From an uncultured Moraxella sp. (GTDB lineage Bacteria > Pseudomonadota > Gammaproteobacteria > Pseudomonadales > Moraxellaceae), in the NCBI RefSeq assembly GCF_945873075.1, contig NZ_CAMCBS010000020.1:1-35353 (forward strand): 35,353 nt of DNA. The letters run 5' to 3'. Under the pieces are notes generated by a model. It was not told the DNA's origin, did not search any database, and was given only the letters and a program-made list of their open reading frames with translations. Positions 3,619-32,341 of this stretch are shown piece by piece. Numbering within the stretch: the stretch's first letter is position 1; every line of letters begins with the position of its first letter. The position numbers were made by a program, and so were the translations under genes.

Positions 3619-4095
3619 TCAAGCCCCATCCGTCTGCTGATTATCCGCCACAAACGGCACACACGCCTGCCACGCCGTGCAGTCTTGATGTGTCTCACGG
3701 CGGATATAATACTCTTCGACCATGCGCGCCTGCTGTTCGATACCATAAGCAAAAAAGCTTTTGCCATCACGCAATGTATAGCGATATCGGCGGTTAAAGA
3801 GCGCACGCCAAAACACCGCCTTGCCCTGCTGTACCTGCCACACATGGGTCAGCTCATGGATGAACCATGCACGCTTGGTCAAGGTTTCACGTGAAACATC
3901 CACCATCCAATCATCAGGATGAAAATAAATATTGCCATCAGGCGACACCGCATAGCCTGACAGCACCCACCAAGCGGTCTTGAGCCGAACACGCTCAAGG
4001 TCGATGGCGTCGCCAAACACACTTTTGGCAAGCTGTTTTTCGCCATCACTCAAAGGACGGCTCAGCGCGCGAAAGCAGATAGGATTACTAATCAT
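3619..4095 (-). CDS. Small HExxH metallopeptidase-like protein
   Basis: The 158-residue protein carries HELTHVWQ (His80, Glu81, His84), a zinc-peptidase style HExxH motif. It also has FHPDDW upstream and the segment 'YGIEQQARMVEEYYIRR' downstream, whose Glu could be a third ligand. The protein resembles small DUF4157-like or so-called vgr-related proteins of Moraxellaceae. No signal peptide or membrane segment is seen. It faces the redox operon and is divergent from rarA. A near-perfect parS site (3883-3898) lies inside the gene and is translated as VSRET (residues 67-71), just before the active-site motif. The substrate is unknown. Confidence 0.7.
   Translation of the reverse strand: MISNPICFRALSRPLSDGEKQLAKSVFGDAIDLERVRLKTAWWVLSGYAVSPDGNIYFHPDDWMVDVSRETLTKRAWFIHELTHVWQVQQGKAVFWRALFNRRYRYTLRDGKSFFAYGIEQQARMVEEYYIRRETHQDCTAWQACVPFVADNQQTDGA
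3883..3898. other. parS-type ParB binding site inside a gene
   Basis: GGTTTCACGTGAAACA matches the chromosomal parS consensus TGTTTCACGTGAAACA at 15 of 16 bases, and the 14-base core is a perfect palindrome. It lies in the HExxH gene, about 31 kb from the origin region. ParB would bind here to organise and segregate the origin domain. Confidence 0.85.
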
Positions 4096-4122
4096 GATAA
4101 TGGTTAAAGCTTGGATGCCAAT

Positions 4123-4152
4123 TTATCAAAGCGGTCTAAATTGTGCTAAAAT
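4123..4152 (+). promoter_or_regulatory. Probable rarA promoter
   Basis: TTATCA (4123-4128) and TAAAAT (4147-4152) are separated by 18 bases and lie 30 bases upstream of the rarA ATG. The match is moderate at both boxes. Confidence 0.45.
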
Positions 4153-4182
4153 ACCACAATCACCAGCCAAAGCCAACCATTT

Positions 4183-5430
4183 ATGAAACCCTTAGCCGAA
4201 CGTATGCGCCCCGCCACCCTTGCCGATGTCATCGGACAGACGCACCTACTTGGCGATAATGCACCCATTCGCAACATTGTCAATCAAGGTTTTTTGCCAT
4301 CCATCATCTTGCATGGCTCAGCAGGCATCGGCAAAACGACGATGGCGATGCTGCTGGCAAGTGCGGTGAATCGTCCGTTTCGCCCTTTATCGGCGGTCAG
4401 TAGCGGTGTCAAAGAGTTGCGAGAAGTGCTTAGCCATGACGATGGGCTGTTTCACGAACCGCCTGTGGTATTCGTCGATGAGATTCACCGCTTTAATAAA
4501 GCCCAGCAGGATGCCCTACTACAAGCGGTAGAAACTGGCGAGATTACCTTTATTGGCGCAACCACCGAAAATCCGTCGTTCAGCGTCAATAATGCGCTAC
4601 TGTCTCGCTGTCAGGTGTACAAGCTGCATCCGCTTGAACCACACGAAATCACCGCACTCATCAAGCGAGCCATCCAAAAAGATACCATACTTAAACAAAA
4701 ACAGATTATTATCAATGATTTAACAGCACTCATCGACCTATCTCAAGGCGATGGACGCCGTGCGCTAAACCTACTTGAGCTCGTCGCTGCCGGCAGTGAG
4801 CCTGTGATTATCGATAACCAAAGTGTCACCGCAGTGGCAGGACAATCCCTAGTTCGCTATGACAAATCAGGGGATAATCATTATGATTTGGTGTCGGCGA
4901 TGATTAAGTCCATCCGTGGTAGTGATGCTGATGCTGCCTTGTACTGGATGGCTCGGATGCTAAGCGCTGGCGAAGATGCTACCTTTGTCGCGCGCCGTCT
5001 GGTCATCGCAGCCAGCGAAGACATCGGGCTTGCCAACCCCAATGCGCTACTGATTGCTGATACTGCCCTGCGTTCGGTGCAGTCGATTGGGATGCCTGAA
5101 GCTCGGATTATTCTTGGGCAAGCGGTGGTGTATCTTGCCAATAGCCCCAAATCCAACTCCAGCTACAACGCCATCAATGCCGCCATGAAGCTTGCCGAAA
5201 CTGACCAATCACCCGTACCGCTACACCTGCGAAATGGTGTCACCAAGCTTATGCAAGCGGACGGCTATGGCGCAGGCTACATCTATCCGCACGATTATCC
5301 CAATCACTATCACCCACAGCAGTATCTGCCCGATAGCCTTGTCGGTACTCGTTTTTATCAATTTGCCGATAATCAAAAAGAGCAAGCCAGCTATGCGTTT
5401 ATCAATTGGCTCAAACAAGGCAGTTCATGA
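4183..5430 (+). CDS. rarA: Replication-associated recombination ATPase RarA (MgsA)
   Basis: RarA is a clamp-loader-like AAA+ ATPase that acts at stalled replication forks and single-strand gaps. The 415-residue length is normal for the family. The order is as expected: a short N-terminal segment with [12 protein letters not shown], Walker [10 protein letters not shown] (residues 45-53), Walker [17 protein letters not shown], and sensor 1 [10 protein letters not shown]. The lid and the conserved C-terminal tetramerisation region follow, with [11 protein letters not shown] and EDIGLANP. The gene stands alone between the divergent HExxH gene and ribB. No strong Shine-Dalgarno sequence precedes the ATG. 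An alternative start at residue 8 is possible but would cut the conserved N-terminus. Confidence 0.95.
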
Positions 5431-30956: not shown

Positions 30957-31028
30957 GGCAAATCCTTCACAAGGTGCTTAGACTGGGCGGTATTTTTGCC
31001 CAAAATCATTAATAAAAAATTATCAGCC

Positions 31029-31057
31029 ATTATAGCATTTTTTTTATTAAAAGTCAC
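31029..31057 (-). promoter_or_regulatory. gyrB promoter
   Basis: GTGACT (31057-31052) and a perfect TATAAT (31034-31029) on the minus strand are 17 bases apart, in the 182-base gap between recF and gyrB. It gives gyrB a start independent of the dnaA operon. Confidence 0.6.
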
Positions 31058-31138
31058 CGCAACTGCGATGGTTTCGGTAGGAATTTTTGTGCGATAACAG
31101 GTGTGGTTTGATGCACCAATCCCAGCTTGCCCACAGGC

Positions 31139-32341
31139 TTATTGTGCATAAATTTCTGCAAACTTACCCTGTTTCACATGAAACATTTTATAACTGGTGG
31201 CAGTTTGGGAATTCGGTAGGTCACTTGACTGCTCAAGTGTCTGTAGATGCATCAGGATTTGGCTATGGATATCAGCGTTGAGCGTGCTGATGATACTTTG
31301 GCAAGGCAAAGATAGCACGGTGTCAAGTAAGATATTGGTGGCGGCATCATCAAGCTCGGCATCAATATCATCAATCAGCACCACAGGTGGGTGAGTGATG
31401 GCGGATTTGCCTTGACTGAGCAAGGTGCAAATCAAGCTTAATTGTGATAGGCGTAAGGCGGTGATGAGTAGTTTTTTTTCGCCACGAGACAGGATGTGTG
31501 TGGCTTGTTCACGCAGCTTTTGCCCGTCATCATGGGTAGCTTTGAGTATCACGCCGACATCAGCACGATGCGCACCGATGCGGGTATAGCCAAGCTCAAT
31601 GTCCTGCATCACCCGAGCGGACAGGGTTTGTGATAGTGGCTGAGTGGTATCAAATCCTGCCAAATATTGCAGGCTGATTTTGTCCGCATAATTTGGTAAT
31701 AGCTTTGCTACCATCTGAGCGAACACCGCTTGCCATTCATCAAACATCGACACACGATGCTCATGCAGTGCCTGCGCATAGTGCGATAACTGCATATCCC
31801 ACGCTGTCAGCTCATTGATGCGATGCTGGATATTAGGGTACTTAAGTAGGCTGTTGCGCTGTTTGAGCAGTCGCTGATACTGTAGCCACTGATGATAAAA
31901 TTCAGGTTTCACGTGAAATGCAAGCCAATCGAGCAGTTGCCGACGACTGCCACTGCCTTCATCAAGTAGGCTCATGCTACTTGGGTCAATCAGCACCGTC
32001 GGCAGATGAAAGCTGAGCACACTTTGGCTTTGGGCGGTTTGTTCGTTAAATTTTAATAAAGTATCAGATTTACCCATACCATCCAGCTGTTTTTGGATAG
32101 CAAGGGTGCACTGCTCTTGAAAATTGGTGCTTGCCCAGATAGTACACGCTTGCTGGTGATGGCTGATATAGCGCTTGGGCTCATGATGGCGAAAGCTTTT
32201 GCCCCGAGACAGCAAAAACACCGCTTCTAACAGCGATGTCTTGCCACTGCCATTATCTCCATAAATCAAATTACACTTGGCAAATGATAATGAAGCTTGG
32301 CTTAAATTTCTCAGATGGTGAATGCGGATGTGGTCAATCAC
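31139..32341 (-). CDS. recF: DNA replication and repair protein RecF
   Basis: RecF is an SMC-like ATPase that helps load RecA at single-strand gaps. The 400-residue protein has Walker A GDNGSGKT (residues 28-35), the ABC-type signature region LSRGEKKLLITALRL and Walker B PVVLIDDIDAELD. The start is GTG (32341), two bases after the dnaN stop. The gene carries two parS-like sequences. One gives FHVK in LDWLAFHVKPEF (about residue 144), the other FHVKQ 14 residues from the C-terminus. The C-terminal segment after Walker B is longer than in many RecF proteins. Confidence 0.95.
   Translation of the reverse strand: MIDHIRIHHLRNLSQASLSFAKCNLIYGDNGSGKTSLLEAVFLLSRGKSFRHHEPKRYISHHQQACTIWASTNFQEQCTLAIQKQLDGMGKSDTLLKFNEQTAQSQSVLSFHLPTVLIDPSSMSLLDEGSGSRRQLLDWLAFHVKPEFYHQWLQYQRLLKQRNSLLKYPNIQHRINELTAWDMQLSHYAQALHEHRVSMFDEWQAVFAQMVAKLLPNYADKISLQYLAGFDTTQPLSQTLSARVMQDIELGYTRIGAHRADVGVILKATHDDGQKLREQATHILSRGEKKLLITALRLSQLSLICTLLSQGKSAITHPPVVLIDDIDAELDDAATNILLDTVLSLPCQSIISTLNADIHSQILMHLQTLEQSSDLPNSQTATSYKMFHVKQGKFAEIYAQ
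31170..31185. other. parS-type ParB binding site in the 3' end of recF
   Basis: TGTTTCACATGAAACA differs from parS only at the central G (here A). It is identical to the 16-mer at 16205, which supports selection for this exact variant. It lies about 4 kb from the origin region. Confidence 0.75.
31905..31920. other. parS-like site inside recF
   Basis: The perfect 12-base palindrome TTTCACGTGAAA is present, with three outer mismatches to the 16-base consensus. It lies about 3.2 kb from the origin boxes. Confidence 0.6.

Follow-up and report, generated by a model that had tools for sequence, protein, structure and literature searches.

A cluster of parS-like sites around the inferred replication origin of an uncultured Moraxella, with two positions in recF that recur across an order

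Short palindromes resembling parS, the loading site of the chromosome partition protein ParB, recur in a stretch of 35,353 nucleotides from an uncultured Moraxella sp. (hereafter the window, which is contig C20 of a draft genome). Several of them are written into genes, and this raises the question of whether they belong to a segregation system that has left its mark on unrelated proteins, or whether they are motifs of those proteins which happen to look like parS at the DNA level. Measured against TGTTTCACGTGAAACA, six sites stand at 3883, 16205, 23719, 23734, 31170 and 31905, with 1, 1, 2, 1, 1 and 3 mismatches, respectively, exactly where the initial annotation of the window had placed them. 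Such matches average 0.30 in 100 dinucleotide shuffles of the same DNA and never exceed 3. The six sites are very probably members of an ordinary chromosomal parS cluster, with 13 sites over 48.9 kb flanking the replication origin (oriC), belonging to the ParABS system encoded as rsmG-parA-parB. In systems of this type ParB loads at parS, spreads as CTP-dependent clamps, is moved by ParA and is used to load SMC. In the Moraxella genome ParB would load at the sites of the cluster and spread from them as CTP-dependent clamps, ParA would move the loaded ParB, and ParB would serve SMC loading. Binding of ParB to the predicted sites, and their function in segregation, are expected on this basis.

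The distribution of the sites in the genome is the first line of evidence. The draft comprises 2,087,468 bases in 60 contigs (93.6% complete), and 17 places in it match with up to 3 mismatches: six on C20, seven on C35, and one each on C1, C2, C12 and C46. The eight closest places, with 1 mismatch or none, are all on C20 or C35. The end of C20 beyond dnaA and the end of C35 beyond rpmH have 55 identical bases in common, and the two contigs can therefore be placed on one 48.9 kb stretch, with sites on both sides of the dnaA-rpmH interval, the presumed oriC. This stretch represents 2.3% of the genome and contains 13 of the 17 places (binomial P ~1e-18, C35 having been picked after the matches were known). 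A reversed pattern used as a control gives 20 places in the whole draft at the threshold of 3 mismatches, so that the genome total of 17 is not above background; what counts as evidence is that the sites cluster and that they match closely. Three relatives have dnaA at the start of a contig; if that contig is taken as circular, all of their places with at most 1 mismatch fall no further than about 50 kb from dnaA (5/5 in G004, 5/5 in G006 and 11/11 in G010). The initial annotation had interpreted the sites as the parS of a ParABS system, lying close to oriC. This proposal is upheld by the uneven distribution over the genome, by the presence of parA and the start of parB, and by conservation in relatives. 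Only six of the 13 sites were counted at that stage because the cluster continues on C35.

The gene parA is located on contig C15, after rsmG, and encodes a protein of 258 aa (PF13614, E 5.8e-55). The start of parB follows directly, and C15 ends 78 codons into it, inside a PVE repeat. The initial annotation had named a lack of parAB as telling against its proposal; parA and these first 78 codons of parB are present. ParB is matched in 19 of the 22 genomes of the genus, the misses being this genome, G016 (88% complete) and G007. The search beyond the genus covered 80 of 100 genomes (36 of 56 from the family and 44 of 44 from the order), and 79 of these 80 have a match. A true absence of ParB from this genome was considered and rejected, since the parB fragment on C15 and the matches in the genus indicate an assembly gap. 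The N-terminal PVE repeat of parB (L016:2461-2520, at the C15 end) is the point at which the assembly breaks, and its length varies among relatives. In the alignment, the helix-turn-helix of ParB reads IASVVGK instead of IADVVGK in G003, G013 and G021. Among the matches listed, CATG centres occur without IASVVGK in G004, G006 and G009, and in these matches the type of centre, CACGTG or CATG, shows no clear relation to the ParB residues.

The two sites in recF allow the protein and the DNA to be separated. RecF was aligned over 121 genomes: this one, 20 others of the genus, 56 from other genera of the family and 44 from other families of the order. The genus set includes every genome with a match (21 of 22) and the family set all 56 matched among 62 searched; the order set is the best 44 of 90 matched genomes, with distant members under-represented. 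The codons homologous to the internal site (31905) match GTTYCAYRTGRAAC in 16/20 genus, 54/56 family and 41/44 order genomes, and those homologous to the C-terminal site (31170) in 15/20, 33/56 and 41/44, respectively. In one family genome, G071, recF is cut at its C-terminus by a contig end and was scored as a miss at the latter position. Both positions match in 13/20, 32/56 and 40/44.

In principle, the intragenic matches could be mere protein motifs (FHVE in RecF, VSxET elsewhere) whose coding DNA resembles parS. This would agree with the retention of the internal FH of RecF in five records from lineages without par, with the weakness of site 31905, and with the RibE of this genome, which retains VSRETL over DNA that has diverged from parS by more than 3 mismatches. 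Nevertheless, this explanation is highly improbable. It leaves the clustering around oriC unexplained, and intergenic sites exist as well, after the stop codon of a decarboxylase gene and beside sua5 and ribE. Moreover, it does not account for the choice of synonymous codons. Among genomes whose peptide reads FHV(E/K), 97 of 102 have the parS-type codons CAC-GTG-RAA at the internal site and 78 of 89 have them at the C-terminal one, against 6.27 and 6.19 expected from each gene's own codon usage outside the motifs, masked by position. In the remainder of these genes, HV is written CAC-GTG in 4 of 47 cases and V(E/K) is written GTG-RAA in 16 of 178. The recF sequences are related and these counts are not independent trials; restricting the comparison to the first listed FHV(E/K) genome per genus, out of 48 genera, lessens this effect and gives 45/45 (2.98 expected) for the internal and 38/41 (3.01 expected) for the C-terminal position. 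Given FH(V/M)(E/K), DNA of the GTTYCAYRTGRAAC type is found in 111 of 113 genomes internally and in 90 of 92 at the C-terminus, a coupling that is informative one way only, as the absence of the pattern without the peptide is true by construction. The two recF positions are under synonymous constraint. We infer that this constraint is due to ParB, and the bases concerned seem to be under selection in two capacities, as protein code and as segregation site.

In this genome the C-terminal site 31170 is clear (1 mismatch), and the internal site 31905 fails GTTYCAYRTGRAAC, with 3 mismatches and one arm without its G, at a position where 16 of the 20 genus relatives keep the pattern. There is somewhat better than an even chance that 31905 is a dead relic here, no longer a ParB site and retained only as RecF peptide, its role having been taken over by 31170 and the other sites, which would be compatible with a ParABS cluster at oriC. 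Against such a loss, the core TTTCACGTGAAA and one complete arm are still present, and binding to half-sites is reported for the ParB of Pseudomonas aeruginosa (PMC10419367).

Lineages further away provide a comparison. Named recF records were represented by 7 of 49 matched records from a plasmid collection, several of them chromosome-sized (Legionella is among those not covered), and a separate search for RecF relatives gave five loci, of which only Colwellia was used. Colwellia recF carries both sites at 16/16, Aeromonas recF the C-terminal site only, and Acinetobacter baumannii recF an internal site with 3 mismatches and none at the C-terminus. One RecF stretch is identical in A. baumannii and in genomes of genus g15 of the family, which points to Moraxellaceae as the family of the present organism. 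The recF stretch read has no site with 3 or fewer mismatches in Escherichia coli, Klebsiella, Enterobacter, Proteus and Pasteurella. These five records have FHNE or FHHH at one position and FTVE, FRVE or FSVE at the other, and the internal FH is kept in all of them. To our knowledge, the Proteus chromosome lacks par. The chromosomes of Enterobacteriaceae and Pasteurellaceae have been described as lacking par (PMC7022226). The state of recF in the enteric bacteria would represent a loss. It is likely that the recF parS pair is ancestral, possibly a class-wide component of the gammaproteobacterial centromere, carried since before the split of Pseudomonadales and Colwellia. Under this scenario, the C-terminal FHV(E/K) would persist because of the DNA signal, lineages that lost ParABS would have let it drift, and MnmE and the ABC transporter of the window would show the same process at a younger stage.

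Several observations weigh against the assignment of the sites to an ordinary ParABS cluster. Profile searches of this draft with TIGR00180 and PF02195 gave no ParB match, and parB is represented here by an N-terminal fragment running off C15. TIGR00180 also matches in an E. coli control, so this model does not single out chromosomal ParB. The outlying places on C1, C2, C12 and C46 have no assigned chromosomal position. Among the matches listed for relatives, the spread is wider in G005 (sites to 117 kb from recF) and G012 (to at least 141 kb), and some sites of G001, G002 and G008 are on other contigs. Five genomes with a ParB match (G015, G020, G034, G109 and G147) have neither recF site, and in G167 the two recF sites are present without a ParB match. 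Finally, the sites with a CATG centre deviate from the usual consensus, the parS palindrome of bacterial chromosomes being mainly TGTTNCACGTGAAACA (PMC7022226).

The intragenic location of the sites was among the features that had first drawn attention to them. In the window, 3883 lies in the gene of a small protein, 16205 in that of an ABC transporter, and 31170 and 31905 in recF; on C35, rsmB holds one site, fmt two and mnmE two, and two further sites are intergenic, beside sua5 and ribE. With a gene list set by hand from open reading frame (ORF) lists, coding sequence makes up about 91% of the region and 9 of the 13 sites are intragenic, or 11 of 13 if the pair 23719/23734 is counted. The region is mostly genes, and this is why most sites are intragenic. 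An intragenic excess was rejected; for 9/13 the binomial even indicates fewer than expected (P 0.02). The initial annotation had regarded this placement as unusual, a view that the coding fraction does not sustain, intragenic parS having moreover already been published for P. aeruginosa and Caulobacter.

The same annotation had counted five host proteins in the window. At most four can be listed: the small protein, the ABC transporter, RecF (twice) and, doubtfully, the product of the ORF at 23076-23753. The doubt arises from relatives, in which window-side synteny was read in G013, G021, G003 and G001 only. In G021 and G003, one site lies directly after the stop codon of the same decarboxylase gene, and in G013 it lies 23 bp after; none of these three genomes has a second site beside that gene. 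The three sites are outside the genes matched there, sites in relatives having been tested only against genes matched to the window or to C35. In G021, the site overlaps by 4 bases the open frame of the next gene, which is not necessarily the gene itself. This conserved location next to a stop codon and outside genes makes the coding status of 23719 and 23734 doubtful; judged by this comparison, both are probably intergenic, and the 23076-23753 ORF is probably non-coding at its FHVK start.

The peptides read from the sites, FHVK and VSRET, had also been singled out, as scars of the DNA signal. A palindrome with a TGAAAC arm has open readings only as FHVK/FHMK or as VSRET/VSHET/VSCET, the third frame containing a TGA; in the variant with GGAACA arms the third frame is also open. 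With only two open frames in the former case, peptides of the FHVK and VSRET types follow automatically. A palindrome with a TGAAAC arm would thus write FHVK/FHMK or a VSRET-type peptide and would be kept where the protein tolerates this peptide or already has it. The suggestion that proteins have been shaped by a DNA need is partly supported: by the recF codon choice and, judging from their distribution, by the sites of the ABC transporter and of the MnmE linker. In RecF and RibE, the site also sits on residues which the protein has anyway, so that selection on the protein and on the DNA signal may both act.

Some sites appear younger than the recF pair. In the ABC transporter, FHVKQG and the site are found in 3 of 20 aligned orthologues (this genome, G013 and G021, the closest in sequence), and the other 17 have unrelated residues at that position; G015 has no orthologue. 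Site 16205 is probably a recent gain. MnmE carries one to three sites in 21 of 21 orthologues, and at least two in 17, in a linker of variable length. In G002, G005, G012 and G019, three sites are located in a linker enlarged by VSRET/VPRET-like repeats. A homologue of site 3883 (VSCET, 1 mismatch) is present in one of the three relatives that have the gene, G013, and the small-protein gene of G021 and G003 has no site within 3 mismatches. In G013, the segment hyp3619-rarA-ribBA lies across oriC from its arrangement in the window, and the homologue of site 3883 stays with its gene; the acyl-CoA block (ivd to acs) is inverted relative to the ABC transporter (compared with window 3619-15167). 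Over 26836-34939, the identity of genus relatives to the proteins of this genome is 45-59% for DnaA, 50-67% for RecF, 79-94% for GyrB and 86-98% for GuaA. G007, listed in the same genus, has no RecF or ParB match, a weak partial MnmE match and no parS within 1 mismatch; it is probably mislabelled or unusual and was excluded from the protein comparisons.

Table 1. Coordinates of the parS-like sites, their host genes and the origin-proximal end of the window
Feature	Coordinates	Strand	Remarks
parS-like site, 15/16	3883..3898		reads VSRET in small protein 3619-4095 (-)
parS-like site, 15/16, CATG centre	16205..16220		reads FHVKQ in ABC transporter, N-terminal to ATPase domain
parS-like site, 14/16	23719..23734		second of pair, between decarboxylase gene and 23076-23753 ORF
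parS-like site, 15/16	23734..23749		immediately 3' of decarboxylase stop codon (23750-23752, read on -)
parS-like site, 15/16, CATG centre	31170..31185		reads MFHVKQG near RecF C-terminus
Eroded parS-like site, 3 mismatches, core TTTCACGTGAAA intact	31905..31920		reads FHVK in RecF stretch LDWLAFHVKP
recF, host of two recurrent parS positions	31139..32341	-	
ABC transporter (membrane and ATPase domains), host of site 16205	15445..17280	-	
Small protein, host of site 3883, no Pfam match at E 0.001	3619..4095	-	
dnaA-side part of presumed oriC	34940..35353		last 55 bases overlap with C35 end (rpmH side)

The arrangement has its closest published parallel in P. aeruginosa, where 9 of 10 parS sites are most likely in coding sequence (PMC4368675) and where parS1 and parS2 lie within recF (PMC5521831). 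The likeness to parS1-parS4, an oriC-near cluster that is mostly coding and has two members in recF, is at the level of genes (PMC4368675, PMC5521831); of the two recF positions, the internal one is eroded in the present genome. In P. aeruginosa, an excess of ParB lowers expression of the dnaA-dnaN-recF-gyrB operon, likely via the two recF sites (PMC5521831). This makes it conceivable, though improbable, that some of the Moraxella sites serve gene regulation, through ParB silencing of that operon, more than segregation.

There are also differences from P. aeruginosa, which has four sites close to oriC, compared with 13 (up to 3 mismatches) in 48.9 kb here. CATG centres are common in the present case, sites also occur in mnmE, fmt, rsmB and the ABC transporter, and parA and parB are on the separate contig C15. 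The host genes of parS in Bacillus subtilis presumably differ from those described here. The conserved chromosomal palindrome is shared with the B. subtilis parS/Spo0J system (PMC7022226). In Caulobacter crescentus, as here, sites near oriC lie inside essential or costly genes (PMC5815017), but its five strongest sites are within 5 kb (PMC5815017) and those of the present cluster are spread over 49 kb. A parS cluster near oriC that is partly intragenic is thus of a known kind and represents expected biology. The addition is the recurrence of the recF sites over an order, together with the codon test. Conservation of parS codons in recF across an order was not found in the titles and abstract openings of the literature searched, and could be contained in the main comparative paper, Livny 2007 (PMC2168934).

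In recF, a DNA signal and a protein code thus seem to have been preserved together, over long periods, in one set of bases. Lineages without ParABS offer a possible natural control for this double use, and the ABC transporter a possible young example of it. In RecF, MnmE, Fmt and RsmB, all encoded near oriC, the conservation of a residue is by itself no proof of a function in the protein. Should the scenario of an ancestral recF pair with younger sites in MnmE and the ABC transporter hold, the gain and loss of centromere sites would be legible in protein sequences.

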